From a virus, in IMG/VR virus record IMGVR_UViG_3300010042_000017, positions 1 through 34,095 of that record: DNA of 34,095 nucleotides; one strand, given 5' to 3'. This document shows positions 5,217 to 31,050 of this stretch, piece after piece. Position numbers and translations under genes: made by a program. Every line of letters begins with the position of its first letter. Positions within the stretch are counted from its first letter, which is position 1. Under the pieces are notes generated by a model. The model had not been told where the DNA came from and did not search any database. It saw nothing but the letters and a program-made list of their open reading frames with translations.

Positions 5217-5232
5217 TTGACGTAACCGTCAA
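5217..5232. promoter_or_regulatory. TTGAC-N6-GTCAA dyad between divergent genes (copy 1)
   Basis: The dyad is perfect, with a 6-bp spacer. It lies between the minus-strand gene starting at 5174 and the + strand gene starting at 5279. On the minus strand the TTGACG half can act as a -35 with GATAGG 15 bases further. On the + strand TTGCGC starts at 5242, exactly 25 bases after the dyad start, with a weak TTAC element 22 bases later. The same 25-base spacing occurs at three other copies. Confidence 0.6.
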
Positions 5233-5278
5233 TATAAATTATTGCGCCGTTGCGCAATTTCGCTTACGCCTACCGCCC

Positions 5279-6391
5279 ATGCGCATTAACGTAGCAGATC
5301 GGATGGAAATTAGCGGCACCAGCCGCACGGCTGACGGCTACCTGGTGGCTGACGCTCCGTTCGCTCGGATTGGCATTTATGAATATGCCGGACGCGAAAT
5401 GGGCATGCCCGAAAAAACTACAGTGAAAATTCAGCGCGACGGCGATGTGGTATTCTCCGATGCCTCAATGGCGTCGTTTTCTCATAAACCTATCACGCTC
5501 GGCCACCCCCCGGTAAATGTAAACCGGGACAATTGGTCAAAATTTGCAAAAGGGTACACTGGCGATTGGGTGAAGCAGGACGGCAAAGTTGTTCGCACGC
5601 CTATGATCGTTAAAGCGGGGGATGCGATCGACGCCGTTGAGGCGGGAACGGTTGAACTATCCGCCGGGTATAGTGTCGAGGTGGATATGACCCCCGGCAT
5701 TAACGATGAAGGTGAAGCCTACGATGGCCGCATGGTAGGCGATATTATAGGCAATCATATCGCAATCGTACCGCGCGGACGTGCGGGCAGCATGTGCCGC
5801 ATTGGCGATGCTTGGGATTTTAACGACGACGACAGTAAGGAAACCCCCATGACGACAAAGACCATTACGTTTGACGGGCTGCCCCTGCTCGTCACCGATG
5901 CAGCTGAGGCCGCAATTGCAAAGCGTGACGCACAGTTGCTCGATGCTGCCGCAGCGCTGACCGCCGAGCAGGGCAAAGTTGCCACGCTGACCACCACGAT
6001 CAGCACGAAAGACGCTGAAATCGTGACGATCACCGCCGCTCGTGACGCCGCAGTGGTTACCCCCGCCAAGCTGGCCGAAATGGTCGCTGCACGGGCCGCA
6101 ACGGTTGCTGACGCCAAGGTGCTTGCGCCTTCGCTGACCGTGACCGACGCGATGACCGACGCAGATATTCGCAAGGGTGTCGTGCTGGCAAATGTGGGCG
6201 ATGCGGCCAAGGATTGGACCGACGAACAGTTTGCAGCATCGTTTGCCACGCTCCCCCGCGCGGGCGGTACGGCGATGACCGACGGGATCCGCGCCACTTT
6301 CCTCACACCGTCCGTTGGCTCACATGCCGCATCGGAATCGGCTTGGCAGGATAGCGTCAACGACCTCAATGCCAGCCGTACGGCCAAGTAA
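5279..6391 (+). CDS. DUF2213 head maturation protease / scaffold protein
   Basis: The protein has 370 residues. Residues 1 to about 185 match DUF2213, a herpesvirus-like prohead protease family in phages with DUF1073 portals. Visible landmarks are Ser-His-Lys-Pro-Ile-Thr near residue 69, Glu-Leu-Ser-Ala-Gly-Tyr-Ser near 127, and Gly-Asn-His-Ile-Ala-Ile-Val-Pro-Arg-Gly-Arg near 160, the likely Ser/His catalytic region. After about residue 190 the sequence changes to Ala/Thr-rich helices of the kind seen in scaffolds, with an internal in-frame ATG at 5849. The start ATG lacks a Shine-Dalgarno sequence and follows a candidate short-leader promoter. The capsid genes downstream fit the role. Confidence 0.82.
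   Translation: MRINVADRMEISGTSRTADGYLVADAPFARIGIYEYAGREMGMPEKTTVKIQRDGDVVFSDASMASFSHKPITLGHPPVNVNRDNWSKFAKGYTGDWVKQDGKVVRTPMIVKAGDAIDAVEAGTVELSAGYSVEVDMTPGINDEGEAYDGRMVGDIIGNHIAIVPRGRAGSMCRIGDAWDFNDDDSKETPMTTKTITFDGLPLLVTDAAEAAIAKRDAQLLDAAAALTAEQGKVATLTTTISTKDAEIVTITAARDAAVVTPAKLAEMVAARAATVADAKVLAPSLTVTDAMTDADIRKGVVLANVGDAAKDWTDEQFAASFATLPRAGGTAMTDGIRATFLTPSVGSHAASESAWQDSVNDLNASRTAK
5849..6391 (+). CDS. possible nested scaffold protein from an internal start
   Basis: Within the DUF2213 gene an in-frame ATG at 5849 is preceded by TAAGGAA (5836-5842), a usable Shine-Dalgarno sequence at about six bases. Translation from here would give a 180-residue protein covering only the Ala/Thr-rich helical C-terminal part. 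Lambda (C and Nu3) and related phages make their scaffold this way from the protease gene. The main gene's own start has no Shine-Dalgarno sequence, so the internal site looks better than the annotated one. Expression is inferred; the frame alone cannot prove it. Confidence 0.4.
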   Translation: MTTKTITFDGLPLLVTDAAEAAIAKRDAQLLDAAAALTAEQGKVATLTTTISTKDAEIVTITAARDAAVVTPAKLAEMVAARAATVADAKVLAPSLTVTDAMTDADIRKGVVLANVGDAAKDWTDEQFAASFATLPRAGGTAMTDGIRATFLTPSVGSHAASESAWQDSVNDLNASRTAK

Positions 6392-6403
6392 GGATTAGCG
6401 AAC

Positions 6404-6853
6404 ATGGCACTTCAGACCTCTTATACGCAGTTTCAGATTCAGGGCTTCCCGGGCATGTCAATGGACATGTCGGAGTGGGACGCCTCCACTAAGACTGCCA
6501 CAGCAACGATCGCCTTTGGCGCCCCCGTCCAGCGTGTCGCTGGTGGCGGATGTGCACCACTGACCAGCGGCGAATATATCGGCATCGCGGCCGCACAGCA
6601 CCTCGTAACCGGCAACGGCGATACGTACGTGCAGTACGATAACGTGCCGGTCGTCAATGAAGGCGTGTGGGGCGGCATCGCCAATGCCGCCTTTGCCGAG
6701 GGCATCGCGGTCAATTGGGATAGCGCCACGGGTCGCTGGACCAACGCCTCGGTTGCTGGTGCAATCTATGCCGTCCCCGGTGTCGAGGCTGAAACGGCTT
6801 CAACCGGTATCGGCGCGTTTTTCATTGTGCGGCTCCGCCGCGTGCCCTCGTAA
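6404..6853 (+). CDS. head decoration / structural cement protein
   Basis: The gene encodes 149 residues and its ATG has AAGGA nine bases upstream. The sequence is beta-rich, with Val-Gln-Arg-Val-Ala-Gly-Gly-Gly-Cys and Tyr-Ile-Gly-Ile-Ala-Ala segments. These resemble the cement or decoration proteins that usually lie between the maturation protease and the DUF2184 major capsid gene. It has no signal peptide. It is placed 12 bases upstream of the major capsid gene in the same transcript. The family match is from pattern and position, so the exact class is uncertain. Confidence 0.65.
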   Translation: MALQTSYTQFQIQGFPGMSMDMSEWDASTKTATATIAFGAPVQRVAGGGCAPLTSGEYIGIAAAQHLVTGNGDTYVQYDNVPVVNEGVWGGIANAAFAEGIAVNWDSATGRWTNASVAGAIYAVPGVEAETASTGIGAFFIVRLRRVPS

Positions 6854-6865
6854 GGAGCCACTAAC

Positions 6866-7828
6866 ATGCAGAATTTTCTCGATGCTCCACAGGCTGCGCT
6901 GGCGTACCTGACAAACCAGGCATATTCGATCAATCCGGTCGTTTATAAAACGAAATTCCCCGAATTGGATTTCGGCAAGCTGGTCTATGTCGATACGAGC
7001 GCTCCCGAGTGGACGCCCGGTATCGTTACGTTCATTTCGAACGGCGTGGGTAAGGCCGAATGGCAAGCCGGCGGCGCCAAGGATGTGCCAAAGGCCGAAG
7101 TTCAGCGCGATATCTCGACCGTCAAGGCGCACATGGCCGCCATTGGTTACGGGTATAATATCGAGGAATTGGGCCAGTCTCAGTTGCTCGGCATGAACCT
7201 TCCCGCCGATAAGGCAATGGCCGCACGTCGCGCCTATCAGGAGTTCATGTGGAACGTATCCCTTACGGGTGACGCCACCAAGAATTTGCTGGGCCTGGCT
7301 AACTCGGCTGGCGTCACCACGGGCACCGCGCCTGCGGATGGCACCGGTTCGGTTACGACATGGTTTGACGGTTCGGGTAACCAGACCAAGACCAGCGCAC
7401 AGATTGTTCGCGACTTTAACGGCATGCTGACCGGCGTCTGGACCGGTTCGCTTACGGTTGAAATGGCGGATACGGTGCTTTTGCCGTACGATATCATTTC
7501 GTATCTTGGCGCAACGCCAATGTCCGGCACAAACAGCGAAACGATCCTTTCGTTCCTGCTTCGCAATAACATCTATACGGCAACCACGGGCCAGACGCTC
7601 CTGATTGTCGGTGTTCTCGGCCTCAACACAGCCGGTTCGGGTTCCACCCGCCGTGCGGTTGCGTACAAGAACGCTCAGGATGTTGTTAAGCTGCACCTTC
7701 CAATGCCGCACAAATTCCTGCCGGTTTATCAGGATGGCGCTTTTGCATACGAAGTGCCCGGCATCTTCCGGACCGCTGGTGTCGAGGTTATCCGCACTGG
7801 CGCATTCCGCTATCTGGACGGGATTTAA
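6866..7828 (+). CDS. major capsid protein, DUF2184 family
   Basis: The protein has 320 residues and its ATG follows AAGGAG. It resembles DUF2184 major capsid proteins, which have the HK97 fold and assemble the shell. Recognisable stretches are the N-terminal Ala-Leu-Ala-Tyr-Leu-Thr-Asn-Gln with an aromatic Tyr-Ser-Ile-Asn, Gly-Tyr-Gly-Tyr-Asn-Ile-Glu-Glu-Leu near residue 95, Ala-Ala-Arg-Arg-Ala-Tyr-Gln-Glu near 118, and a C-terminal Ala-Gly-Val-Glu-Val-Ile-Arg. The gene follows protease and decoration genes as expected. Smooth codon use and strong ribosome binding suggest high expression. A 303-codon antisense frame here is a shadow. Confidence 0.87.
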   Translation: MQNFLDAPQAALAYLTNQAYSINPVVYKTKFPELDFGKLVYVDTSAPEWTPGIVTFISNGVGKAEWQAGGAKDVPKAEVQRDISTVKAHMAAIGYGYNIEELGQSQLLGMNLPADKAMAARRAYQEFMWNVSLTGDATKNLLGLANSAGVTTGTAPADGTGSVTTWFDGSGNQTKTSAQIVRDFNGMLTGVWTGSLTVEMADTVLLPYDIISYLGATPMSGTNSETILSFLLRNNIYTATTGQTLLIVGVLGLNTAGSGSTRRAVAYKNAQDVVKLHLPMPHKFLPVYQDGAFAYEVPGIFRTAGVEVIRTGAFRYLDGI

Positions 7829-7831
7829 ATC

Positions 7832-8128
7832 ATGGCGAAATATACCCTCACGAACATCAGCAACGGTCCTAAGGTTGTTAACAGCACCCCGCCCGTTACG
7901 CTCCAGGTGGGCGAAACCCGCGCGGATCTGGAAATTAACGACGACGAAGCCTTGTCTCAGGGTGGAACGGGCTGGTTCGACGGTTTCGACGGCACCAAGG
8001 GTCTGTCCGGCTATAACAAGGCCGAACTGACCGACATTGCTTTGCTGGAGGGTGTGGAAATTGCACCCACCGCCAATAAGGCCGAGATTGTCGCCGCCAT
8101 CGAAGCGAAGCGCGCCGAAAATAACTAA
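7832..8128 (+). CDS. small head-region protein with C-terminal HeH/LEM-like helix pair
   Basis: The gene encodes 98 residues and starts three bases after the capsid stop. The first 60 residues are beta-rich. The last 35 residues, with Asn-Lys-Ala-Glu-Leu-Thr-Asp-Ile-Ala and Asn-Lys-Ala-Glu-Ile-Val-Ala-Ala-Ile, form two short helices typical of HeH/LEM or Rho-N-like modules found at the ends of small phage head proteins. The role is unknown; a decoration or connector-associated function is possible from its position. The gene is followed immediately by a strong stem-loop. Confidence 0.6.
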   Translation: MAKYTLTNISNGPKVVNSTPPVTLQVGETRADLEINDDEALSQGGTGWFDGFDGTKGLSGYNKAELTDIALLEGVEIAPTANKAEIVAAIEAKRAENN

Positions 8129-8136
8129 GCATACGT

Positions 8137-8162
8137 ACCGGGGTGCCTCACGGTGCCCCGGT
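8137..8162 (+). terminator. stem-loop after the capsid block
   Basis: ACCGGGGTGCC (8137-8147) pairs with GGTGCCCCGGT (8152-8162) over 11 base pairs, counting two G-U pairs, with a TCAC tetraloop. It lies nine bases after the stop of the preceding gene and before the Shine-Dalgarno sequence of the next. No U-tract follows, so it may be a partial terminator or an RNA-processing or stability element rather than a full terminator. Confidence 0.5.
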
Positions 8163-8184
8163 CACGGGCATAAGGGACCGTAAA

Positions 8185-8616
8185 ATGTCGCTCAGTAATT
8201 CAATGGAAAACTACTTGCTGGGGCTGATTTTTAACGGCACCGCAATTCCCAATCTTGCCGACAATGCGGCATCGTCTCCCCTGACGAGCATTTTCATTGC
8301 GCTACACACGGCTGACCCTGGCGAAACCGGCACACAGGCGACCAGTGAGGCGGCATATACTAGCTACGCCCGCGTGGCCGTTGCGCGCACCACAGGCGGT
8401 TTCCCCGCACCATCTGCCGGCGCCATCAGCCCAGCGGCAAATATCGATTTCCCGGCGGGTACGGGCGGTTCGGGCACGGTGACTCATTTCTCGGCGGGTG
8501 CTGCGGTGTCTGGCGCGAGTGTCATTTATTTCAGCGGGACCGTTACGCCAAACATTGTCACGGGTACCGGGATTATTCCTAGACTCACCCCGGCGACAGT
8601 TTTTTCGCTCGATTAA
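8185..8616 (+). CDS. virion protein of the gp80-like / tail-fiber-like class
   Basis: The gene encodes 143 residues from ATG 8185, chosen because AAGGGA lies eight bases upstream; the longer in-frame start at 8143 would lie inside the stem-loop. The protein shows a familiar pattern in phage virion proteins: a helical start (Ser-Asn-Ser-Met-Glu-Asn-Tyr-Leu-Leu), then Phe-Ile-Ala-Leu-His-Thr-Ala-Asp-Pro-Gly, then Tyr-Ala-Arg-Val, and a glycine-rich beta region. These are variously named tail-fiber-like or gp80-like proteins. It is probably structural; its exact location on the particle is unknown. Confidence 0.6.
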   Translation: MSLSNSMENYLLGLIFNGTAIPNLADNAASSPLTSIFIALHTADPGETGTQATSEAAYTSYARVAVARTTGGFPAPSAGAISPAANIDFPAGTGGSGTVTHFSAGAAVSGASVIYFSGTVTPNIVTGTGIIPRLTPATVFSLD

Positions 8617-8649
8617 TTAGTCTGATATTTCATCGTAGGATGGCCCCAC

Positions 8650-8838: not shown

Positions 8839-8839
8839 C

Positions 8840-9712: not shown

Positions 9713-10107
9713 TGCGCATTGCCCTCATCCGCACAAGTGACCGCACTGTTTGCCAGATTTGCGAGCTTGGAAGCGAGGTTTTTCCCGTTGGCGTTGACGT
9801 CGAATATTTGACCGAAGCTGATTGGGTCGATGAACCGCAAGACGGCGCGATCTGGAACGGCGAACGTCCCGCGCAATTCAGCATGCCGGTGCCGAGCAAA
9901 GTATCCAAGATGCAAATTCGCAACGCGCTTTGGGATTTGGGCGTCATGCCGGGGGTAAAAGCGTATCTTGCGCAGGCAGACGGGCGGACAAATGATGCAT
10001 GGGATTGTGCCGATTACATCAGCTATGACGATCCGCTCATCAACATTGCAGCCCAAGCCCTCAACATCGATAAGGATGCGCTGTTTCTCTTAGCCGCTGC
10101 TAGTTAA
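9712..10107 (+). CDS. hypothetical protein, possible fiber-assembly partner
   Basis: The gene encodes 131 residues with its ATG overlapping the end of the lectin-like gene. The first half is beta-rich with aromatic and acidic residues. The second half contains a helix (Ser-Lys-Met-Gln-Ile-Arg-Asn-Ala-Leu) and Trp-Asp-Cys-Ala-Asp-Tyr. This resembles the C-terminal part of small tail-fiber assembly or tail-appendage proteins in which an alpha-helical segment follows the fiber gene. The resemblance is weak. Direct adjacency to a fiber-like gene supports a partner role. Confidence 0.45.
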   Translation: MRIALIRTSDRTVCQICELGSEVFPVGVDVEYLTEADWVDEPQDGAIWNGERPAQFSMPVPSKVSKMQIRNALWDLGVMPGVKAYLAQADGRTNDAWDCADYISYDDPLINIAAQALNIDKDALFLLAAAS

Positions 10108-11001
10108 ATGCCCGGCTTCAACGGCATTGGCTTCGACCAGATCGGCGGCAGTGTCGTTGCGGGTGCTACGATATCGGCCGCAGTTGGCAGTGCAAGCGGT
10201 GCCAGCACAGTTACAGCCATTGGACGTGCTCTTGCTCCAGCGATCGGTGCGGCAAGCGGCACAAATACCACCACAGCGGTCGGTCGTGCACTCAAACCGG
10301 GCGTAGGCGCCGCCCCAGCCACAGGTGCCGCAACTGCAACCGGTCGGGGCGTACGACCGGGCATTGGTGCGGCACCCGCAACCGGAACGGCCCTGGCCAC
10401 AGGTCGCGCGGTCGCACCGGCAATTGGTGCAGCGAGCGGTACGGGTGATGCGAGCGGGTCCAGTGGTGGGTCAACGGTATCCTCGGCGGTTGGCGCGGCC
10501 AGCGCAACCGGTACGGCAACAGCCACAGCCGCCGGTGTTGCCCCAGCTACAGGTGCCGCCAGCGCAACCGGCACGGCAAGTGCTACAGCGCGAGGCGTTG
10601 CGCCCGGCGTGGGCAGTACGGCCGCCAGTGGTACAGCAACAGCCGCAGCCGCCGGTATCGCCCCGGCGGTCGGTACTGCTGCCGGCACGGGCAACGCAAG
10701 CGGCGTTGCGCCGGGTGTCATAATTTCATCCGCTGTCGGCACGGCCAGTGCGAGCGGTGCAGCAACGGCCACGGGTCGCGCGTATGCGACTGGCGTGGGT
10801 ATCTCCGCAGGGTTTGGCGTTGCGGTCGGTTTTGGGTCGTCGATATTCGCTGCTGTCGGTATTGCGGGCGGTGTCGGCACGGCCTATGCGTTGAGCGGAG
10901 AAGGTTTGCCCGTTCCGCCCCGCCGGACGGCATATAGTGGAGCGCGCGGCGGGCTGGCGGTGTCGGCATCTCGCAATCGTACCGCGTATAGTGTAGGATA
11001 A
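10108..11001 (+). CDS. Gly/Ala/Thr repeat protein of twelve 20-residue units
   Basis: The protein has 297 residues. Residues 25-266 consist of about twelve units of 20 residues (two of them 22) with the consensus Ala/Gly-Val/Ile-Gly-Ala-Ala-Ser-Ala-Thr-Gly-Thr-Ala-Thr-Ala-Thr-Gly-Arg-Gly-Val-Ala-Pro. The regular alternation of small residues suggests a stacked, fibrous or polyglycine-like structure. The last 31 residues break the pattern, are basic, and carry Arg-Thr-Ala-Tyr-Ser twice. It starts directly after the preceding gene's stop and precedes a fiber-adaptor-like gene, so a fiber or appendage protein is likely. I know no named family with this unit. Confidence 0.6.
   Translation: MPGFNGIGFDQIGGSVVAGATISAAVGSASGASTVTAIGRALAPAIGAASGTNTTTAVGRALKPGVGAAPATGAATATGRGVRPGIGAAPATGTALATGRAVAPAIGAASGTGDASGSSGGSTVSSAVGAASATGTATATAAGVAPATGAASATGTASATARGVAPGVGSTAASGTATAAAAGIAPAVGTAAGTGNASGVAPGVIISSAVGTASASGAATATGRAYATGVGISAGFGVAVGFGSSIFAAVGIAGGVGTAYALSGEGLPVPPRRTAYSGARGGLAVSASRNRTAYSVG
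10180..10905 (+). repeat. in-frame repeat array, period about 60 bp
   Basis: The coding repeats of the Gly/Ala protein form a DNA array with a 60-bp period and two 66-bp units. Copies have diverged at codon level. GC-rich periodicity keeps an antisense frame open over most of the array (10104-10880), which is not a gene. Arrays of this kind can change copy number by slippage. Confidence 0.7.
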
Positions 11002-11005
11002 TCAT

Positions 11006-11743
11006 ATGGCTATTACATGGCGCTCCAAAGACCCCGACGAAATTGATACACGGCGCCATGATTTTACGGCGTTTATGGATCCGGGCGAAGGGGTCGTTTC
11101 CTACACCGCGATTGTAATTGCCGGTACGGTGATTATGAACAACCCGCTCCCGAGCGTGGCATTTACCGATACCTATGCCGATTATATGCTTGCGGGCGGT
11201 GTCGATGGCGAAACAGCCGTGTTCGACGTGGCAATTGTCACCGACGCGGGCCGCCGTCTCGATGAAACAATCATCATGGGTGTGGTCAGCACGTACCAGC
11301 CCGTCGGTGTCCCCGGTTACGTGCAGCCCAGCGTTGCGGATTTGATCACGCGTTATCCGTCATTTGCGGCGGTGTCACCTGAGACAATCCAGGCGTATTT
11401 GACCGATGCGGCGCGTGATGTGGACGAGACGTGGACCGAGGGTGATTTTACACGGGCAATTATTGTCCGCGCGTGCGATTTGATGACTGCGCAAGGCATT
11501 GGTGTCAGTGAGGCTGGTGCAGCGCTCGGGTCGGGTCTGGCAAGCGTAAAAAGCGGCACGTTATCGGTCAGTTATAGCAGCGATGCGCAACGTGACGCGG
11601 CGGCCGGTATCAGCATTTATAGCCGTCTATGGGCGGAATTGGTCCAGAAAAACAAGGGCGGCCCGCGCGTCACCGTGCCAATATCGCTCGGATCCGGTTG
11701 CGTATTTCCCGCGCACGACTCGCCTTTGTTCGGTCATTATTAA
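11006..11743 (+). CDS. fusion of a fiber-tail-adaptor-like domain and a DUF4054 head-tail connector
   Basis: The protein has 245 residues and its ATG has AGGAT seven bases upstream. Residues 1 to about 95 match the small Ig-like protein found beside fiber genes: Trp-Arg-Ser-Lys-Asp-Pro-Asp-Glu at the start, a strand ending Tyr-Met-Leu-Ala-Gly-Gly, and Thr-Asp-Ala-Gly-Arg-Arg-Leu-Asp-Glu. Residues about 108-245 match DUF4054, a gp6-like head-tail connector: Thr-Arg-Tyr-Pro-Ser-Phe, Ala-Ala-Arg-Asp-Val-Asp, and Ser-Val-Lys-Ser-Gly-Thr-Leu-Ser-Val. These are usually separate proteins. The gene converges with the next cassette, sharing overlapping stop codons. Confidence 0.7.
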   Translation: MAITWRSKDPDEIDTRRHDFTAFMDPGEGVVSYTAIVIAGTVIMNNPLPSVAFTDTYADYMLAGGVDGETAVFDVAIVTDAGRRLDETIIMGVVSTYQPVGVPGYVQPSVADLITRYPSFAAVSPETIQAYLTDAARDVDETWTEGDFTRAIIVRACDLMTAQGIGVSEAGAALGSGLASVKSGTLSVSYSSDAQRDAAAGISIYSRLWAELVQKNKGGPRVTVPISLGSGCVFPAHDSPLFGHY

Positions 11744-12291
11744 GATATAGTGGCGGTAAATATGGTACGTGGGGTAACGCACCACTCAATGTCGCACACT
11801 TTTGAAAACGTCTCGTCCGTACATACCCGATAAATGGCCCGCGTCATTCCGTATCTGTCAATTTGCCAAGTGAACGGGCCAATTTCGCGCCCCATTGACA
11901 TTTTCATAACGTCAAGCGCGCTTTGTGGCTGGCCGCTTACGACATAATCGCCGGGCACCACGGCGGGCCGCATCCGCTTAATCTGGACGGTAAATTCTTC
12001 AGTTGCGCCGCGATCGTCAGCCTCGGGCTTGCGGAATGATTGAGCGTTGAAGGCGTGTACGCCGGGGTATTCGTTAAATTGCAAATACCAGCCGGGCGTA
12101 CCGTCACATAGCGCATTGCCGGCGGTTACGTTTCGCACACGGCAAATGTCGTTCATTTTTGGACCTTCGCCCGGAAAATATCCGTACCATGTGCCGTCAG
12201 CAATACAAACGGCCAAATCCCCAACGCGCCAATCCTCATTGATCGGTGGGCGCTTTTGCTCAGGTGGCTGGGGACGTTTGAAGGGCCACAT
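11740..12291 (-). CDS. hypothetical protein, last gene of the second minus-strand cassette
   Basis: The gene encodes 183 residues from ATG 12291, chosen because AGGAGA lies nine bases upstream on the minus strand; the in-frame extension to 12402 lies inside the neighbouring gene. The central segment Arg-Val-Gly-Asp-Leu-Ala-Val-Cys-Ile, then a Gly-Pro turn, then Trp-Tyr-Leu-Gln-Phe and Ala-Gln-Ser-Phe-Arg-Lys-Pro resembles a beta-barrel-like module widespread in small accessory phage proteins of unknown function. The N terminus is basic and Pro-rich. Its stop overlaps that of the convergent connector gene by four bases. Confidence 0.65.
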   Translation of the reverse strand: MWPFKRPQPPEQKRPPINEDWRVGDLAVCIADGTWYGYFPGEGPKMNDICRVRNVTAGNALCDGTPGWYLQFNEYPGVHAFNAQSFRKPEADDRGATEEFTVQIKRMRPAVVPGDYVVSGQPQSALDVMKMSMGREIGPFTWQIDRYGMTRAIYRVCTDETFSKVCDIEWCVTPRTIFTATIS

Positions 12292-12292
12292 G

Positions 12293-12640
12293 TTAGGTGT
12301 CTCCTGTACGGGCGCGGGTGATGGCGGCGCGGATGAGGGCGACAACACGAACATCCTCTGCATCGTGAATTCCGTTGATCGTAATTTCAGCGAAGGGGCC
12401 AAAGTGTTTTTCAGCGGCCTCCAGCGCTTCCAGCAATTGCGGTGCGGCGGCGATAAGGCGGGCGTTGGCGTGTATCTCTTTGTCGCCTCGCGCCGAGCGC
12501 CAGTATGTCTGCACGAAGCCGTCCCAGTGGACGATACCGCAATCGTGCTCGTCTGAGAAAACGCCGGGGCGCCCGCTCAATGGATTGCCGGCATCATCGA
12601 TAATGACGCGCCATGGCCCCGGAGTATGCGCCCCGCTCAT
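12293..12640 (-). CDS. small phage protein with Thr-Pro-Gly-Pro-Trp start and Asn-Ala-Arg-Leu-Ile motif
   Basis: The gene encodes 115 residues. The N terminus His-Thr-Pro-Gly-Pro-Trp and the later Ala-Asn-Ala-Arg-Leu-Ile-Ala-Ala-Ala-Pro-Gln-Leu-Leu-Glu-Ala-Leu are a well-known pair of motifs in hypothetical phage proteins of about this length. The family has no established function. Its ATG overlaps the upstream gene's stop (ATGA, 12640-12637), and its own stop is one base from the next start, so the three genes of this cassette are co-translated. Confidence 0.75.
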   Translation of the reverse strand: MSGAHTPGPWRVIIDDAGNPLSGRPGVFSDEHDCGIVHWDGFVQTYWRSARGDKEIHANARLIAAAPQLLEALEAAEKHFGPFAEITINGIHDAEDVRVVALIRAAITRARTGDT

Positions 12641-12894
12641 GATGCTGGGCTCGTGGGGGTGGAGACCTCTTGGTGCACAAGCGCCAAGGTTCGTTCACGG
12701 GCTTCGTCGCGAGACAGCCCACGATTGAGGAACATCACATGAGCTTCAGCATCACGTCGATCACCCCAGTGATGGCAGGGGACGAAGGTTCCATGGTGCG
12801 GGCCACGAAGGATGTAGCCGACTGAAGTCCAGCCTACGTTAAAGTCGCAGGGCTTGGTCTCCCACGGTAAGCTGTCGTCTGGCCTGTTGCCCAT
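12637..12894 (-). CDS. hypothetical protein, first gene of the second minus-strand cassette
   Basis: The gene encodes 85 residues. ATG 12894 is preceded on the minus strand by GGAGATACGAG, a usable Shine-Dalgarno sequence. The middle of the protein is rich in His, Trp and Gly (His-His-Gly-Thr-Phe-Val-Pro-Cys-His-His-Trp), which could bind metal. The second half is a helix with Arg-Asp-Glu-Ala-Arg-Glu-Arg. No family is recognised. A promoter reading from the dyad at 12943-12958 (TTGACG, 14 bases, TATAGA) lies about 40 bases upstream. Confidence 0.65.
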   Translation of the reverse strand: MGNRPDDSLPWETKPCDFNVGWTSVGYILRGPHHGTFVPCHHWGDRRDAEAHVMFLNRGLSRDEARERTLALVHQEVSTPTSPAS

Positions 12895-12942
12895 CTCGTA
12901 TCTCCGTCAGGCTGGGTGCCTGTGCGAATCACTCTATATAAT

Positions 12943-12993
12943 TTGACGCAACCGTCAACCCCTATAATTGCACCCGTGCGTGCGGCATGATAC
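12943..12993. promoter_or_regulatory. TTGAC-N6-GTCAA dyad (copy 2) with divergent promoters
   Basis: The dyad occupies 12943-12958. On the minus strand TTGACG is followed after 14 bases by TATAGA, for the cassette starting at 12894. On the + strand TATAAT (12963-12968) runs into TTGCAC (12968-12973), a -35 candidate starting 25 bases after the dyad, with TGATAC at 12988-12993. TGATAC ends nine bases before the ATG at 13003, which has no Shine-Dalgarno sequence. The layout matches the 5217 and 13500 copies. Confidence 0.6.
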
Positions 12994-13002
12994 ACCCTCG
13001 CC

Positions 13003-13350: not shown

Positions 13351-13361
13351 TTTGCCCCGTT

Positions 13362-13499: not shown

Positions 13500-13553
13500 T
13501 TGACGGTATTGTCAATCTATATAATTGCCGCCCGCCTCGCACGGTGCTATACC
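13500..13553 (+). promoter_or_regulatory. TTGAC-N6-GTCAA dyad (copy 3) and promoter for the gene at 13581
   Basis: The dyad is at 13500-13515, followed by TATAAT at 13520-13525 running into TTGCCG (13525-13530), which starts 25 bases after the dyad. TATACC lies at 13548-13553, 17 bases after TTGCCG, an ideal -35/-10 spacing. The downstream gene starts at 13581 with a clear Shine-Dalgarno sequence. No minus-strand gene lies to the left, so this copy serves only the + strand. Confidence 0.6.
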
Positions 13554-13580: not shown

Positions 13581-14090
13581 ATGGCGGGCGTAACAGCGGA
13601 TATTGGCTTGAACATTTCGGCCAGTCTGGTCGGCACTGGTGACCTCGGTAATCCCCGCCTGCAAATCGCCCCTGTGCGCGAGGCATTGCAGCTTTTACCA
13701 GGCACGCTCACGGTCGGTCAGGCTGACATTATGTTTGCCGATACGCGCACGCTGGCCGCTTCCGCAACGGAAAATCTGGACCTTACCGGCACGCTGATCA
13801 ACGCCTTTGGCGCCACGATCAACGCTGCTGAAATTGTCATGATTTACATCAAGGCGGCAAAGGCCAACGTCAACAGCATCATCGTCGGCAACGTCGCAAA
13901 CGGCTTCGTCGGTCCGCTTGGCGCGACTGGTCAATATACGATCAAGCCGGGTGAATATTATCTGGCGGTCAGCGCGAGCGGCTGGGGCGTCACTGCTGCC
14001 ACCGCCGATCTGCTCAAAATCCTCAACGGTGGCGCGGGTACGGCGGTTTCGTACGATGTGGTTATCATTGGCCGTACGGTCGCTGCGTAA
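13581..14090 (+). CDS. virion structural protein, possibly decoration or tail-associated
   Basis: The gene encodes 169 residues from ATG 13581, chosen for CGGAG nine bases upstream; the in-frame extension to 13443 would cross the promoter region. The protein is beta-rich and strongly ordered: Gly-Asn-Pro-Arg-Leu-Gln-Ile-Ala-Pro-Val, Glu-Ile-Val-Met-Ile-Tyr-Ile-Lys-Ala, Gly-Pro-Leu-Gly-Ala-Thr-Gly, Gly-Glu-Tyr-Tyr-Leu-Ala-Val-Ser-Ala. Proteins like it lie between connector and tail completion genes in other alphaproteobacterial phages. It has its own strong promoter, which suggests abundant expression. The exact role is unknown. Confidence 0.6.
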   Translation: MAGVTADIGLNISASLVGTGDLGNPRLQIAPVREALQLLPGTLTVGQADIMFADTRTLAASATENLDLTGTLINAFGATINAAEIVMIYIKAAKANVNSIIVGNVANGFVGPLGATGQYTIKPGEYYLAVSASGWGVTAATADLLKILNGGAGTAVSYDVVIIGRTVAA

Positions 14091-15172: not shown

Positions 15173-15379
15173 TTATGCAGCGCCCTCCATGCAGATTGCC
15201 TCGAATTGCGCGAGTCGAACGGCTTCCATAATTTTTTCGAAATTTTCCGCCGTCTGGTGAGTGGTCCGACCCCGCCGACGTGGGCCGCTTTCCACTCGCT
15301 CCAGCAAATCCGCGCACATACGCTTGATTTCGTTTGTGGCTACGACGCGGCGCTCCACTGGGTCCATATGAGCGTTCAT
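15173..15379 (-). CDS. 68-residue helical protein, lone gene of the third minus-strand cassette
   Basis: The ATG at 15379 is preceded on the minus strand by GAGGGG about ten bases away; an in-frame second ATG lies four codons in. The protein is helical and charged (Glu-Ile-Lys-Arg-Met-Cys-Ala-Asp-Leu-Leu-Glu-Arg, Asn-Phe-Glu-Lys-Ile-Met-Glu-Ala-Val-Arg). A basic stretch, Pro-Arg-Arg-Arg-Gly-Arg, lies in the middle and might bind nucleic acid. No family is recognised. Like the other two cassettes it points against the late genes and has a TTGAC dyad upstream. Confidence 0.6.
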   Translation of the reverse strand: MNAHMDPVERRVVATNEIKRMCADLLERVESGPRRRGRTTHQTAENFEKIMEAVRLAQFEAICMEGAA

Positions 15380-15448: not shown

Positions 15449-15502
15449 TTGACCGCCCCGTCAACCCCCTAATTTGACAATACCGTCAATGCGCCCCATA
15501 CC
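15449..15502. promoter_or_regulatory. tandem TTGAC-N6-GTCAA dyads (copies 4 and 5) with divergent promoters
   Basis: Two perfect dyads lie at 15449-15464 and 15474-15489, exactly 25 bases apart. The second also acts as a -35 on the + strand: TTGACA (15474-15479), 17 bases, then CATACC (15497-15502), six bases before the ATG at 15509. That ATG has no Shine-Dalgarno sequence, so the transcript may be leaderless. On the minus strand the first dyad gives TTGACG with CGTATG 15 bases on, toward the gene at 15379. Confidence 0.6.
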
Positions 15503-20622: not shown

Positions 20623-20623
20623 T

Positions 20624-23257: not shown

Positions 23258-25206
23258 GCGACGTTGACGTTACTCTGACTGGTGACCCGATTTTGGTTAC
23301 TATCGATGATGAGATTATCGAGGTAGTTGTTGCTCTGCGCGGTCCGATCGGTCCCCCTGGACCGGATACGGAGGATGCGTTAGCGCTGTTGGGTGAACCT
23401 GAGGGCGCGGGTATCGTTGGCTATGACCCCGCCGAGACGTACCCTGATGGTACGGTTGGTGCGGCTCTTGTGGACGTGCCATATGCAGCCAGCGCCATGT
23501 ACGAGCTAAAAGACCGACCGCGCCCGTCATTGCGACCTAATGCGACATTCATCGCAGCGTTGCTTTCCGGCACGACAAATGGTGGGATACTTGGCGACAG
23601 TATATCTGATGCGTCAGGTACATCCTATGCGAATAGCGCGGTGGCCTTGTTGCAATCGGAATTACGCAGGCGATATCGTTACCATACGTGGAATTTTATT
23701 AACCGGTCTATCGGGGGGCGCAGCACTGCACAACTTGCGGATACCACTTATGTGGCCGGCGGTGGGGGCGGTCAGTTTACCGTTCCAGCCCCTACAGGTT
23801 TGACCCGTACAACCAATATAAATTATTGGACCACAGGTTCAGTCAACGGGAAAACATGGCTTAATCATGCTAAAGACGACGCGCTGGATTGGGTATTTCG
23901 TTTAACAGGCGAAAATGACGGAACCGATTCGTTTCCGTATTCTACCAATTCACAGACGATCGTGGACCTCGTAGGCGGTACTCGTCCAGACCTGCCGACA
24001 TTTAACTGGACAAAATTACCGTGGATGGTTTTAAAAGCCGGGGTGATTACCGCGGGCGTATCGGTCAACGACCGCCGCGGTCGTCAGTCGCTTGCTGATT
24101 ACGACCGCCATTACGCAATTCGCAATGGACTCGGGTTGCTCGACTGGAATGCTTACGAACAAATGTTAGTCGCTGGCCGCCGGGTTGAACTGCGCCCGTG
24201 GGATGACACGAGCGTATGGCAGGCAGCGTGGGGAAACCCCTCACTATCTGGCACGACCGGCACTTTCAATAAATCTGGCACCTCCCTGACCGGCAATGGC
24301 GCGGTTCGATTTTTCACACCAACGCGGGATTTACGTTTCAGCGCTAACATAACTGCAACCGTAAGCGGGTCTGTATATCTGATCACCGCACGGGAACGGC
24401 CGAGTGAGGGCGGGTGGTCTATCCAAGGCGATCTGGACAGTGGTTATATCCGGCTTTACAGTCGTGGAGTATTAACGGCACTCACCGATCCGCCCGTGCC
24501 GGTAACTCCCGTCAACACGGCCGTATGGGTTTATGTAGAATTTGATGCTGCATATATCCGAGTTTACCACAATGGTACAAAGGTGGCAGATTGGTTCTAC
24601 CCCGCCGGTATGGAAGAGGGTACATATCAGATTGGATGGGCTGCCGGTCAGGGCACGTTTGCTAACACCGAGATCGTGGCTGCACCAGACACCCCAGCAT
24701 CTTTGCCGTTTTTCTCAGACGCACAGATATATTCGGATACTCTACACCACCCTAACGGTTTGGGTGCGCGTAAGATTATTCATGCCTCGGTTATGGATTT
24801 TCTTGATGATTTTCATAACGATGTGATGACTCGGACGTACCCAATCACTGCGCGCTCCACTGCCAATATTGTGGCGGCTGATGCGGCTGCGGATGTGCCG
24901 GGGGCATCCGTGACGTTCATGGCGGGCGTTTTGCAGGATATCCCGGTATCAATCGAGTTTGGGTATCTAAATTCGGCTGGAGCGTCGGGTTTAGTTATTT
25001 TACAACTTGATGGTACCGCGCAAGTTAGTTGGTATTTGCGCCCCACCGGATCCGAGACAGAAAATCGCCAGGAGACGTGGGAGATTATGCTACCTAATGT
25101 TCCACCGGGGCTTCACACGGTGAAATTGCTGTGGAGCAAATTAGGTGTTACCAGCAACGGTGACGGTAATACGCGCAGAATTACAGCACAGGTGAAACCA
25201 GCATGA
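23254..25206 (+). CDS. tailspike with SGNH esterase domain and inserted lectin-like module
   Basis: The protein has 650 residues. An N-terminal attachment part includes a collagen-like Gly-Pro-Ile-Gly-Pro-Pro-Gly-Pro near residue 30. The SGNH hydrolase blocks are all present: Gly-Asp-Ser116-Ile-Ser (block I), Ser-Ile-Gly-Gly-Arg (block II), Gly-Glu-Asn221-Asp-Gly (block III), and Asp495-Thr-Leu-His498 (block V). About 270 residues separate blocks III and V; residues about 320-480 in this gap look like a LamG/concanavalin-type glycan-binding domain. The residues after 525 form another beta domain. It probably removes acetyl or acyl groups from host surface polysaccharide during adsorption. The base composition looks more AT-rich than in neighbouring genes. 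Confidence 0.82.
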   Translation: MSDVDVTLTGDPILVTIDDEIIEVVVALRGPIGPPGPDTEDALALLGEPEGAGIVGYDPAETYPDGTVGAALVDVPYAASAMYELKDRPRPSLRPNATFIAALLSGTTNGGILGDSISDASGTSYANSAVALLQSELRRRYRYHTWNFINRSIGGRSTAQLADTTYVAGGGGGQFTVPAPTGLTRTTNINYWTTGSVNGKTWLNHAKDDALDWVFRLTGENDGTDSFPYSTNSQTIVDLVGGTRPDLPTFNWTKLPWMVLKAGVITAGVSVNDRRGRQSLADYDRHYAIRNGLGLLDWNAYEQMLVAGRRVELRPWDDTSVWQAAWGNPSLSGTTGTFNKSGTSLTGNGAVRFFTPTRDLRFSANITATVSGSVYLITARERPSEGGWSIQGDLDSGYIRLYSRGVLTALTDPPVPVTPVNTAVWVYVEFDAAYIRVYHNGTKVADWFYPAGMEEGTYQIGWAAGQGTFANTEIVAAPDTPASLPFFSDAQIYSDTLHHPNGLGARKIIHASVMDFLDDFHNDVMTRTYPITARSTANIVAADAAADVPGASVTFMAGVLQDIPVSIEFGYLNSAGASGLVILQLDGTAQVSWYLRPTGSETENRQETWEIMLPNVPPGLHTVKLLWSKLGVTSNGDGNTRRITAQVKPA

Positions 25207-28066: not shown

Positions 28067-28394
28067 TGTCAGAGAGCGATGCGCGGACACGTGGGCGATC
28101 CTCAAACGCCGCATCTATGCTCTGCACGATTTCATAGTGGGAGAGGAGTCGCCCATCCTTGCTTTCGTGATAGTATTCGCTGTCGTTCATGCTGAGGTGG
28201 CTAAGTATGAAGTACGGAGCTTCGTCGGAGAAAACGCCTTCCCGGATCACCTGCTTGTACATGTAATGCCGCTTTCTGCGGGCACCGATGAAGTGAAACA
28301 CTTTGATGATGTCGCCGATCATGATTTCCCGGCCATGCTTATCGTACAGCCCCTCACTCAACTCCCCCGCGATCTCGCGCGCCTGGTCGGTCAT
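28050..28394 (-). CDS. YopX-like small phage protein
   Basis: The gene encodes 114 residues from ATG 28394, with GGAGAAA upstream on the minus strand; longer in-frame starts lie in the neighbouring gene. The segment Tyr-Asp-Lys-His-Gly-Arg-Glu-Ile-Met-Ile-Gly-Asp-Ile-Ile-Lys-Val-Phe, then Tyr-Met-Tyr-Lys-Gln-Val and Tyr-Phe-Ile-Leu-Ser-His-Leu, forms a beta pattern seen in YopX-like and similar small phage proteins whose function is unknown. It is the last gene of the minus-strand chain 29688-28050. Its 3' end overlaps the spanin gene by 17 bases. Confidence 0.65.
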   Translation of the reverse strand: MTDQAREIAGELSEGLYDKHGREIMIGDIIKVFHFIGARRKRHYMYKQVIREGVFSDEAPYFILSHLSMNDSEYYHESKDGRLLSHYEIVQSIDAAFEDRPRVRASLSDTTEQR

Positions 28395-28696
28395 GGGGTT
28401 TCTCCGGGGATATTGGGGCCGGTATCCGGTTTGAGGGAATAATCCCCGGCTTCGTGGACCGAAGGCCATATCACGCGAACAACCTCGTCCAGCGGCGTGT
28501 TGAGGAATCTCCAAGGCAGGCTGGCCACAATCCAGAAATCATCATCCACACGAATGTAAATTACGCCGTCCGGATATCCAGGGTTCTGGCCGGGGGCAAA
28601 TAGCTCGCGGTTGAAGTCCCATGAGGGGATTTCATCGTGCCAACCGTATAGAGGCGCGTCCTTGCTCTCGGCTTTCCATCCCAGCAGATCCATCAC
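28391..28696 (-). CDS. hypothetical protein in the minus-strand early chain
   Basis: The gene encodes 101 residues. Its ATG overlaps the upstream stop (ATGA, 28696-28693) and its stop overlaps the next start. The protein is rich in Trp, Asp and Pro, with Val-Ile-Tyr-Ile-Arg-Val-Asp-Asp-Asp-Phe-Trp-Ile-Val-Ala near the middle, a compact beta domain. No family is recognised. Context indicates an early or accessory gene. Confidence 0.65.
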   Translation of the reverse strand: MMDLLGWKAESKDAPLYGWHDEIPSWDFNRELFAPGQNPGYPDGVIYIRVDDDFWIVASLPWRFLNTPLDEVVRVIWPSVHEAGDYSLKPDTGPNIPGETP

Positions 28697-29289
28697 TCTC
28701 CCCCTTCATCGCGCGCGGGCGGGGTGGCGAGTTCGAGCCAAGTGTCTGCATGGCATTCCACATCGAGAGCACACCAACAGGCCAAATTCTTGCCGCGCAG
28801 TTCGGCAGCGCGATCCATTAAAAAGGCGCGGTCTGCGTTCGACATGGAGGCGATGTCAGCATCGAAGTCGGCCTTGGTGGACCCCGCGTAATTTCCGTAG
28901 GGGCTAGGGCGGCTGACCTTCACCGTATTGGGCGGCATCCGCCAGCCTTTGGTGCGACGTAATTGAACGCGGATCGGCATCACCTTCCTCCTTGCGGGGG
29001 GGGTTACGGCGACGCGAATAATCTCCAGACATCGTGGGCAGCAATGAGCCAGAATTGCGTTCGTTTGCCGATCCAGCGCCTTTCGCAGTTCGTCCGCCTC
29101 ACCCCGCGCGGTTGCTGCGCGTTCGTCGGCGTAGGCGAGCATTGCGCGCACGACATTCGGATAATATTCTGTGTCCACGTCCCTGCGAATGTCAGCGGCA
29201 ATAGAATCGCGACACACCCCGCCGAATTTCTCAACGGTCTGCGCAAATATCTCCCGTGCCCGTGCCCGCGCATCGTTCTGGTCGGTCAT
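28693..29289 (-). CDS. fusion of a helical domain with a DUF4326 domain
   Basis: The protein has 198 residues from ATG 29289 (GGAGACCC upstream). Residues 1-102 are helical and contain Cys-Cys-Pro-Arg-Cys. Residues 104-198 match DUF4326, a small domain of phages and bacteria: Met-Pro-Ile-Arg-Val-Gln-Leu-Arg-Arg, Pro-Asn-Thr-Val-Lys-Val-Ser-Arg-Pro, and Gly-Lys-Asn-Leu-Ala-Cys-Trp-Cys-Ala-Leu-Asp-Val-Glu-Cys-His-Ala-Asp. The joint has eight C in a row followed by AAGGAGGA and ATG 28980, exactly like a separate gene start. Two separate genes fused by a C-tract length change is therefore possible. The domain's activity is unknown. Confidence 0.68.
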   Translation of the reverse strand: MTDQNDARARAREIFAQTVEKFGGVCRDSIAADIRRDVDTEYYPNVVRAMLAYADERAATARGEADELRKALDRQTNAILAHCCPRCLEIIRVAVTPPARRKVMPIRVQLRRTKGWRMPPNTVKVSRPSPYGNYAGSTKADFDADIASMSNADRAFLMDRAAELRGKNLACWCALDVECHADTWLELATPPARDEGGE

Positions 29290-29450
29290 GATGGGTCTCC
29301 GGGGTGGCGTTCGAACGACAGCGCGGCCAAAGCAACGAAGACCAAAGGGTAAGCGAAGATGAACCCGCCCCACTGCCAAATTGCGGGAGGCCAGATGTTG
29401 AGCCACGCCCCGGAGGCAATGCCACAAAGGAATATGGTGCGTCGTTTCAT
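29286..29450 (-). CDS. 54-residue membrane protein
   Basis: The frame starts at ATG 29450, two bases past the stop of the preceding gene (TGAA-ATG), and its stop overlaps the next start (ATGA, 29289-29286). An extension upstream to 29564 would lie wholly in the neighbouring gene. Two hydrophobic segments, about residues 5-22 and 25-44, contain many Trp and Ile. It is probably a small inner-membrane protein. No family is recognised. Confidence 0.6.
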   Translation of the reverse strand: MKRRTIFLCGIASGAWLNIWPPAIWQWGGFIFAYPLVFVALAALSFERHPGDPS

Positions 29451-29451
29451 T

Positions 29452-29688
29452 TCAGAAAGTCCATGTTTTGTCGGCCAAAACCTCTTCAAGTGTCCGCTCG
29501 CCGCGATCCACCGCTTGCAAATCAGCGACCTTTTCGCAGTGCTCGCGATGCGAATTCCATTCACTTGCGGCGTTGGATTTTGCGCCTTTGTTCATCCACA
29601 TGGCCGACTGCCAGCCACATGAGCAGGCGCACTGAACCCCGATACTGAAACGAGCTTTGTGGTCGGGATTTGTTTTGCGTCGAGCCAT
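29452..29688 (-). CDS. small Cys/His protein, first gene of the chain controlled by the RHH operators
   Basis: The gene encodes 78 residues from ATG 29688, which has GGAGG eight bases upstream on the minus strand; the nine-residue extension to 29715 would start inside the operator. The middle has Cys-Ala-Cys-Ser-Cys-Gly-Trp and later His-Arg-Glu-His-Cys-Glu, a probable zinc site of the kind found in small phage proteins. The second half is an acidic helix. It lies opposite the ribbon-helix-helix gene with the four operator copies between and inside them, so it is probably repressed by that protein. Confidence 0.68.
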   Translation of the reverse strand: MARRKTNPDHKARFSIGVQCACSCGWQSAMWMNKGAKSNAASEWNSHREHCEKVADLQAVDRGERTLEEVLADKTWTF

Positions 29689-29707
29689 TTCACTTGCCTC
29701 CGTAGTT

Positions 29708-29796
29708 GATATCACCTAAATAGATGATATCTTTTACGAGTGCAATAGGTGATATCAACAAAATGGCAGGCTTGGCAGAAAAAACGATATCACCTA
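29708..29796. promoter_or_regulatory. four-copy operator (TAGGTGATATC) around the RHH gene start
   Basis: TAGGTGATATC or its complement occurs at 29708-29718 (reverse), 29721-29731 (forward, one mismatch), 29746-29756 (forward) and 29786-29796 (reverse). The first two form a near-perfect 24-bp palindrome. The last lies inside codons 8-12 of the RHH gene. The cluster covers the divergent promoter area, so binding would block both the RHH gene and the gene at 29688. Confidence 0.7.
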
Positions 29797-29960
29797 TCCC
29801 GGCATCCGTGGGCAGGCCGCGAATCAATGGGGAGCAGACTCCCGCACGCTTCCGTGACGGCACCCTTGCGCGGATCGACGCCATGCTGGTGGACAATGAG
29901 AAGCGTTCCGACTTCATCCGGGAGGCCGTGGAGCGCGAAATCAAGCGCCGGTCTGCGTAA
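29763..29960 (+). CDS. ribbon-helix-helix repressor (CopG/Arc-like)
   Basis: The gene encodes 65 residues from ATG 29763; an upstream in-frame ATG at 29724 lies inside the operator and lacks a Shine-Dalgarno sequence. Residues 28-65 fit a ribbon-helix-helix fold: a strand with Ala-Arg-Phe-Arg-Asp-Gly-Thr, a first helix Leu-Ala-Arg-Ile-Asp-Ala-Met-Leu, a turn with Asn-Glu-Lys-Arg-Ser, and a second helix Asp-Phe-Ile-Arg-Glu-Ala-Val-Glu-Arg-Glu-Ile. The N-terminal 25 residues are a polar, Pro-rich arm. It is the only + strand gene in the early region. The operators around its start suggest autorepression. An antitoxin role is possible for this fold, but no toxin is adjacent. Confidence 0.8.
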   Translation: MAGLAEKTISPIPASVGRPRINGEQTPARFRDGTLARIDAMLVDNEKRSDFIREAVEREIKRRSA

Positions 29961-29964
29961 CCGC

Positions 29965-30534
29965 TCACTTCCCCTCTCCCCCAGCGGCGGGGCGAATCTG
30001 TACGCCGCAATCGCATTCGCCAAGCCATTCGCCGTCTGCGCGGTGAACGTCGCCAGTGTCGTCGCAATGAGGGCAGCGATTCCCAGCATCGGCGGGCGTT
30101 AGGGCTGCGAGTGCTGCGCGGGCCTTGGCTACAATCCGGTTCGGATCATGCTCGCCTTGCGTCGAAGCGTAACAAACGATCGCGTCAAGGTACGGCTCAA
30201 GTTCTTCCAATGCTTCCAGCGCGACATCCCGCACCGCAGGCCCATCGCTGAGTGGGGTGGCCGAAGCGCGCTCGTAAATTTCATTCGCGGCGTTTGTGAT
30301 CGTCTCCAAAGCCGTTTCGGGATCGGGGAACACGTCCTTGGCGTCTGCGCACATCGAAACCAGTTGGCCCAGTTCCTCGATATGGCTCATCCGGGCTTCA
30401 CGCATTGGGGCTGGCATCCTCTCTGCCGCCGCGTTCGCCCTCGCAAAGACGTTCGCCAAGGTGCCCCCATCCACAATCGCAGGCGCAAGGATCGGCTGCG
30501 CACCGGGGAAGCTGGCGGGTTTGGTTTTGGTCAT
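29965..30534 (-). CDS. zinc-knuckle accessory protein
   Basis: The gene encodes 189 residues from ATG 30534; a longer frame to 30786 covers two smaller coupled genes and is rejected. The first 140 residues are acidic and helical. The end has Cys-Pro-His-Cys-Asp-Asp-Thr-Gly-Asp-Val-His and, after a turn, Gly-Glu-Cys-Asp-Cys, a four-Cys zinc knuckle. The protein is typical of early phage accessory proteins of unknown role. Its start overlaps the stop of the 40-residue gene upstream (ATGA). Its end converges with the RHH gene, four bases apart. Confidence 0.65.
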   Translation of the reverse strand: MTKTKPASFPGAQPILAPAIVDGGTLANVFARANAAAERMPAPMREARMSHIEELGQLVSMCADAKDVFPDPETALETITNAANEIYERASATPLSDGPAVRDVALEALEELEPYLDAIVCYASTQGEHDPNRIVAKARAALAALTPADAGNRCPHCDDTGDVHRADGEWLGECDCGVQIRPAAGGEGK

Positions 30535-30653
30535 GAGAAAATCCAGTATGCAAGCGGGGTAAGAACTACGCAGCAGATCAGCGCGAACCGGCCAAGACCC
30601 GGCATTGCAGCGAGGGATTGCTGACATGGCGTGCAAGTGCAGCCGGGGTTCAT
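30531..30653 (-). CDS. 40-residue Cys-rich membrane peptide
   Basis: The frame starts at ATG 30653, overlapping the stop of the preceding gene (ATGA, 30653-30650), and its TGA (30533-30531) overlaps the next start. The N terminus has Cys-Thr-Cys-Thr-Pro-Cys, followed by one hydrophobic segment (about residues 20-39). A shorter start at 30605 is possible but removes the Cys motif. Double coupling supports it. Small peptides with Cys-x-Cys-x-x-Cys at the N terminus occur in many proteobacterial phages without known function. Confidence 0.6.
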   Translation of the reverse strand: MNPGCTCTPCQQSLAAMPGLGRFALICCVVLTPLAYWIFS

Positions 30654-30808
30654 GCTGCAAACTCCCGTCGGAATGCTTCCTCACGGACACCCCAAGCCCT
30701 GGTGCGAACCATCCAGTCCTGACGCAGTGCATCAACAGCAGCCTGTGCCGCGCGGTGCTCCTGTTTGGCCTTGTCAAGACGGGCAAATGCGCGTTGTTCT
30801 TTATTCAT
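30650..30808 (-). CDS. 52-residue basic helical protein
   Basis: The frame starts at ATG 30808 (ATGA overlap with the preceding gene's stop) and ends with TGA 30652-30650, which overlaps the next start. It is one long, charged helix: Asn-Lys-Glu-Gln-Arg-Ala-Phe-Ala-Arg-Leu-Asp-Lys-Ala-Lys, then Arg-Gln-Asp-Trp-Met-Val-Arg. A nucleic acid or protein binding role is possible but unsupported. Coupling on both sides supports the call. Confidence 0.6.
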   Translation of the reverse strand: MNKEQRAFARLDKAKQEHRAAQAAVDALRQDWMVRTRAWGVREEAFRREFAA

Positions 30809-30996
30809 GAGAAAAATCCAATCGCAAACATCGTGCCGGCAAAACTGGCCACAATTGCAAACACGTCACCCCACGTAACAGACGGCACATGCTGCTCGGG
30901 TAGGAGCGAATCCGGCAAATCGATCGGTAGCGGTCCCTCGGTGGGCGTGGCGGCCGCGCTGTAGCGGCTGGCGGGTCTGGATTGGCGGTATGACAT
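30805..30996 (-). CDS. 63-residue protein with C-terminal membrane segment
   Basis: The ATG at 30996 is preceded on the minus strand by GAGGGAG at eight bases; the six-residue extension to 31014 has no such site. Residues 1-40 are polar and Pro-rich. Residues 44-62 are a single hydrophobic segment, so this is probably a tail-anchored membrane protein. It is the first gene of a four-gene minus-strand chain (30996 to 29965), downstream of a promoter whose -35 lies in the dyad at 31035-31050. Confidence 0.62.
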   Translation of the reverse strand: MSYRQSRPASRYSAAATPTEGPLPIDLPDSLLPEQHVPSVTWGDVFAIVASFAGTMFAIGFFS

Positions 30997-31034
30997 ATCG
31001 GTAATCTCCCTCAATGCGAATCATATCGCACAGA

Positions 31035-31050
31035 TTGACGGTCCCGTCAA
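31035..31050. promoter_or_regulatory. TTGAC-N6-GTCAA dyad (copy 6), promoter of the 30996 chain
   Basis: This is a perfect dyad between the polymerase gene and the next minus-strand gene. The polymerase stop codon (31047-31049) lies inside the dyad. On the minus strand TTGACG is followed after 17 bases by GATATG, then TGATTCGCA, a string also found at the same distance in the minus-strand promoter at 12943. It serves only minus-strand genes here. Confidence 0.6.

Follow-up and report, generated by a model that had tools for sequence, protein, structure and literature searches.

The 34-kb linear virus record IMGVR_UViG_3300010042_000017 from IMG/VR, analysed over its whole length of 34,095 nucleotides and called the window here, carries genes for portal, capsid, tail, lysis and polymerase proteins, together with six perfect copies of the inverted repeat TTGAC-N6-GTCAA. 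Very probably, each of the six dyads is a site where a protein binds, superimposed on the start signals of early genes and of inserted reverse-strand genes. We consider it likely, from sequence and gene arrangement, that they are operators of early promoters bound by a small TetR-like protein of about 100 amino acids, the mini-TetR, which would repress those promoters and its own gene. A previous reading, made from the sequence alone, had already described the dyads as one regulon with a spacer fixed at 6 bp, and our count bears this out, as dinucleotide shuffles predict 0.02 copies. Among all window dyads with 5-bp arms and spacers of 0-14, TTGAC-N6-GTCAA forms the largest family; in 20 simulated sequences the biggest dyad family of whatever kind had 2-4 copies. 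The same arms at spacers other than 6 are almost absent from the window. All six centres are intergenic, in a window whose intergenic share, computed from a hand-made gene list, is about 8%. Also as previously noted, just 4 bases of one dyad (31047-31050) overlap a gene, namely the end of the polymerase gene, and five of the six have CC in front of GTCAA. Each dyad starts with TTGACGG on one of the two strands. In five of them (dyads 1, 2, 3, 4 and 6 of Table 1) this arm points towards a gene that has a Shine-Dalgarno-like sequence and whose start codon is 39-70 nucleotides (nt) away. The sequence-only reading had named equally good dyads inside genes as grounds for abandoning the regulon; the sites of the relatives are found mainly where genes meet, which mostly favors the finding, and its proposal that the dispersed dyads answer to a single regulator has good support.

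To relate the dyads to promoters, we surveyed -10 spacing at the dyads of eleven relatives. On the start-codon side, TATAAT-like hexamers (at least 4 of 6 matches) peak at a spacer of 17, where 45% of the dyads have one, compared with 0-19% at other spacers. This peak argues that one TTGAC arm would serve as the -35 hexamer of a sigma-70-type promoter while the other lies inside the 17-bp spacer, and a dimer bound to the dyad would therefore cover the core promoter. The start codon follows about 40-70 nt from the dyad, and the relatives' promoters are near consensus at both hexamers, within the 16-18 bp separation of the sigma-70 type. Window promoters conform in part, with candidate -10 hexamers at spacer 17 for dyads 1, 4 and 6 and at 16 for dyad 2 (Table 1). 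On the plus side of dyad 2, TATAAT is found at spacer 14, as it is for dyad 3. The exact sequence TATAATTGC occurs on the plus side at 12963-12971 and 13520-13528, 4 bp past these two dyads; it differs from the spacer-17 pattern of the relatives and is perhaps a host-specific -10. We rejected TATAATTGC as a late promoter of the window, since there are only two exact copies. Moreover, the dyad plus TATAAT at spacer 14 was discarded as a mark of the regulon, because it gave 57 single hits in viral contigs and no mini-TetR.

TTGAC is also the -35 consensus, so each dyad might be nothing but the back-to-back -35 boxes of two divergent promoters, used by host RNA polymerase with no dedicated regulator. 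Dyads 1, 2 and 4 are indeed positioned between divergent genes, and some dyads have -10-like hexamers on both sides. We regard this explanation as highly improbable. Both arms are retained where a single gene lies downstream, as at dyads 3 and 6 and at 9863 and 29902 in the Klebsiella phage JD001 (Jedunavirus), and the spacer-17 signal in the relatives is found at only 16% on the side without a start codon. In addition, Pseudoalteromonas phage PY6 (L184, PP806536), which has a mini-TetR, carries a different dyad, TAGCG-N6-CGCTA, at 7108, 8015, 12383, 19993 and 28189. At these five gene starts it sits between the -35 and -10 boxes of TTGAC-N18-TA promoters (TTGAC..TACACT-type, hexamer spacer 17); the dyad and the -35 are therefore separable. 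The PY6 dyad is at most suggestive of an operator for a specificity variant, in which specificity would have drifted and the logic stayed.

The candidate binder emerged from contigs selected by their dyads alone. When IMG/VR was scanned for pairs of dyads lying within 30 bp, 57 contigs came back; 31 of them were searched whole, and eight of these carry 5-12 dispersed dyads, mostly at gene boundaries. The eight share replication genes with the window or among themselves: the polymerases of G037, G036 and G054 are 60%, 58% and 36% identical to that of the window, and genes for single-stranded DNA-binding, helicase and primase-type proteins are shared among the eight. With genes in metagenomic contigs taken as simple longest-open-reading-frame picks, all eight encode the mini-TetR. 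The profile used for detection was built from five of these contigs and four reference phages, and the members in the remaining three contigs were found independently. All six members tested fall in PHROG 8723, whose annotated function is unknown. In the other 49 tandem-dyad contigs there were three clear PHROG 8723 matches and a weak one that resembles a regular TetR; a tandem pair is thus no sufficient mark of the system.

We then examined 81 loci (1.39 Mb) retrieved by polymerase homology only, without using the dyads. TTGAC-N6-GTCAA is the commonest 5-bp-arm dyad in this set (72 copies in 35 loci, many loci having one or none within the fetched stretch), and each other spacer yields 0-4 copies. 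The profile detects a mini-TetR in 40 of the 81 loci. For 15 of the 40, the 70 nt upstream of the gene include a TGAC-N6-GTCA dyad, where 1.4 would be expected within 250 nt. A dyad also stands at the 3' end of the polymerase gene, the place of dyad 6 in the window, in 16 of 80 loci against 1.7 expected. As a negative control, PHROG 8723 was found in none of 23 capsid or portal relatives, and such relatives are nearly free of dyads (a single match in 25 records, none in 5 further ones); the regulon therefore does not travel with the virion genes. A scan with a tail protein returned nothing. Two other repeats came up during these searches and were set aside: GATCG-N6-CGATC in Sphingomonas contig L040, whose five copies apparently lie inside coding frames and were judged to be chance, and hairpins of TTCTCCCG..CGGGAGAA in L044 (Lichenifustis flavocetrariae), repeated at 2655, 8031, 9625, 12276 and 12392 around phage-like genes, which are REP-like or terminator-like. 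The TTCTCCCG hairpins are probably host-type repeats.

The association extends to cultured phages. By tblastn, 98 phage records contain a mini-TetR, and Klebsiella phages account for 65 of these. JD001 has seven perfect dyads and several one-arm variants; nine of the 11 sites counted are 40-68 nt from an annotated start codon, and 43 nt separate the dyad at 29902 from the gene annotated as TetR. Those at 4781, 9863, 16431 and 18563 front plus-strand genes within the minus-strand late region. In Acinetobacter phage Scuro there are five dyads of the form TGACA-N4-TGTCA, and the annotated TetR gene is 35 nt from one of these. The mini-TetR proteins of Scuro (L177 21424-21924) and SppYZU01 (L179 38065-38565) are 166 amino acids long and, judging by profile matches, apparently contain two tandem helix-turn-helix copies.

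Another regulator might of course read the dyads. The sequence-only reading had offered two window candidates, the winged-helix protein at 4016-4351 and the helix-turn-helix protein at 667-867, and to these can be added some other replication-module gene or a factor from the host. The first candidate has an OmpR-type DNA-binding domain (a Trans_reg_C match) and sits under a dyad, and it is the replication module as a whole that co-occurs with the dyads. Still, the winged-helix gene is the second gene of a dyad-fronted cassette, the protein at 667-867 gives just a sub-threshold HTH_1 match, and no homologue of either came up in the dyad-bearing contigs compared with the window; neither candidate is supported. 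Against a host factor speaks that the dyad keeps company with the phage replication module in contigs whose GC ranges over 0.43-0.68 and in hosts from Klebsiella to Acinetobacter, which makes such a factor unlikely. The mini-TetR is, moreover, the only helix-turn-helix protein with a dyad repeatedly just upstream of its own gene. Taken together, a reader other than the mini-TetR seems to us quite improbable.

The predicted structure of the mini-TetR suits the role of dyad binder. Pfam TetR_N scores above its cut-off in four of the six members tested and below it in two. The AlphaFold2 model is confident and all-helical (99 residues, mean predicted local distance difference test score 93.9), and its top matches in the PDB are regulators of the TetR family, which are longer and align with it over just part of their length, at modest E-values; two small proteins, 97 and 98 amino acids long, are among its best viral structure matches. 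Lengths are mostly 92-110 amino acids, and the model comprises the helix-turn-helix helices followed by short helices to residue 98, without the large C-terminal ligand-binding and dimerization domain of the TetR family. The model thus indicates a TetR-like protein that lacks the ligand-binding domain. Like TetR, QacR, EbrR and NalC, it would combine a TetR_N helix-turn-helix with a palindromic operator over a promoter and an operator before its own gene; unlike them, it has no ligand-binding domain, seemingly serves many promoters and has no evident effector.

The dyad stands before the mini-TetR gene, before early operons and before reverse cassettes, and this is most simply read as a negative feedback by which early transcription would be brought to an end. 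Host RNA polymerase would fire the early promoters, into which the dyads would be built as operators, and the mini-TetR, most likely the PHROG 8723 protein encoded near the helicase and primase genes and often behind the same dyad, would accumulate. It would then shut off its own gene together with the early operons and the late region's reverse-strand cassettes, so that the latter would be silenced before head-on collision with late transcription. The earlier suggestion that early and late parts share one signal holds insofar as the operator is the same; it is better put that early-type promoters carrying this operator front reverse cassettes inserted in the late region.

Several observations weigh against this model. 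The window's -10 boxes are weak or oddly spaced (as for dyad 3), and the promoter reading of the window therefore leans partly on the relatives. A perfect dyad is absent from the fetched stretch in 46 of the 81 polymerase loci, and several mini-TetR phages, for example VP16C and Stenotrophomonas B2, lack a perfect TTGAC dyad. Because a single replication module accompanies both the dyad and the mini-TetR, another gene of that module could be the binder. Furthermore, the PHROG 8723 gene was not found in the window. No helicase, primase, terminase large subunit or integrase was found among the window proteins searched either, and the last gene runs past the contig end; given the missing helicase, primase and terminase genes and this truncated one, the contig is probably incomplete, and we infer that the mini-TetR gene would be encoded in the portion not covered by the contig. 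Finally, the mini-TetR might bind the dyads and yet activate, or act as a lysogeny repressor instead of an early shut-off factor, and the weak -10 boxes of the window could call for an activator. We consider this unlikely, as the near-consensus promoters of the relatives should work without an activator, polymerase is normally blocked by a dimer that sits over the -35 and spacer, as in TetR-type operators, and no integrase was found among the window proteins searched.

Table 1. Dyads and associated genes of the window.
Feature	Coordinates	Strand	Description
Dyad 1	5217..5232	-	TTGACGGTTACGTCAA on minus strand; -35 TTGACG, -10 TAGGGT, spacer 17; proposed operator; cassette start 5174, start codon 43 nt off
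Dyad 2	12943..12958	-	TTGACGGTTGCGTCAA on minus strand; -10 candidate TAGAGT, spacer 16; cassette start 12894, start codon 49 nt off
Dyad 3	13500..13515	+	TTGACGGTATTGTCAA; TATAAT at spacer 14; faces plus-strand gene start 13582, start codon 67 nt off
Dyad 4	15449..15464	-	TTGACGGGGCGGTCAA on minus strand; -10 candidate TATGTG, spacer 17; gene start 15379, start codon 70 nt off
Dyad 5	15474..15489		Tandem partner of dyad 4, centres 25 bp apart; no convincing -10 on minus side
Dyad 6	31035..31050	-	Polymerase gene 3' end; -10 candidate GATATG at spacer 17, alternatively TATGAT at spacer 19; faces gene start 30996
Reverse-strand cassette 1	4016..5174	-	Gene 4521-5174 and winged-helix gene 4016-4351
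Reverse-strand cassette 2	11740..12894	-	Three small genes; 12293-12640 matches phrog_1273, function unknown
Reverse-strand cassette 3	15173..15379	-	68-amino-acid gene, GAGGGGG-type Shine-Dalgarno
Gene behind dyad 3	13582..14090	+	phrog_22694, unknown function
Small early gene	30805..30996	-	Directly behind dyad 6
Family A DNA polymerase	31047..33293	-	Served to retrieve relatives independently of dyads

The arrangement of the window genes is summarized in Table 1. Among named genomes, Sphingomonas oleivorans has the capsid protein nearest to that of the window (76% identity), so the host is probably an alphaproteobacterium. Dyads 1, 2 and 4/5 make more sense as minus-strand cassette promoters than as promoters of the plus-strand structural genes. 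All three reverse cassettes of the window have a dyad at their start, as do most multi-gene reverse cassettes in the late blocks of contigs G046 and G049. The cassette gene 4521-5174 has a homologue at a different genomic place in G037 (11821-12588), there too directly behind a dyad (11781), as if gene and promoter-operator travelled together. The gene behind dyad 3 has no counterpart in the structural relatives compared and is probably an insertion as well. Dyad 5 is possibly an auxiliary operator, and tandem dyad pairs are present in relatives too. In G046 (L168-L170), the same dyad promoter and the same gene start occur in three copies, near 226, 6262-6831 and 23730-24401; two of the three genes have their first ~130 residues in common and end in differing Ala/Asp/Tyr-rich repeats. 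Elsewhere in the window, 10108-11001 encodes a 297-residue Ala/Gly/Thr-rich protein with degenerate short repeats within the virion gene block. The gene at 416-670, near the portal gene, is 82% identical to a G037 gene that directly precedes the primase gene, a difference in placement that we take as a sign of mosaic rearrangement.

Stoperators of mycobacteriophages L5 and L1 and the repeated elements of SPbeta are dispersed phage operators, and the dyads resemble them in that many copies of one short operator are spread over a phage genome, at promoters, with one phage-encoded reader; one operator likewise recurs at many gene boundaries per genome here, with six copies in the window and 5-12 in relatives. 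The operators of L1 are described in PMC1934351. Mycobacteriophage stoperators are asymmetric 13-bp sites read by immunity repressors of temperate phages, whereas the window dyads are symmetric 16-bp sites fused to a -35, with perfect 5+5 symmetry in all six, and their probable binder, in Jedunavirus too, is a TetR-like protein of about 100 amino acids. Inverted TTGA..TCAA arms or a 5-6-5 geometry are shared with FNR, FixK and CRP sites, but arms and geometry together agree with the previous opinion that the dyad matches neither FNR nor CRP: FNR/FixK sites are TTGAT-N4-ATCAA (14 bp), while the fifth base is C and the spacer 6 in all six window dyads and spacer 4 is absent, and the CRP arms are TGTGA. 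No protein of the FNR/FixK/CRP type accompanies the dyads. The window cassettes, small, on the reverse strand in the late region and with their own promoter, are like morons, genes inserted into phages together with a promoter, except that the cassette promoters carry the operator of the early operons and hence would belong to one regulon.

Our literature search found no description of a phage mini-TetR regulon; most subscription papers lay outside it, so prior work is possible. We are inclined, by somewhat more than an even chance, to see in the ligand-free mini-TetR and its dispersed early-promoter dyads an undescribed form of gene control in many phages of Alpha- and Gammaproteobacteria. 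It would shut off early genes and let reverse cassettes plug into late operons, with the operator silencing them late, while its specificity would drift by lineage (TTGAC in most, TAGCG in PY6). The model gives the widespread PHROG 8723 a testable function and provides an operator motif usable for annotating early promoters across these phages. It also suggests how reverse genes may join a late operon without disturbing late expression.

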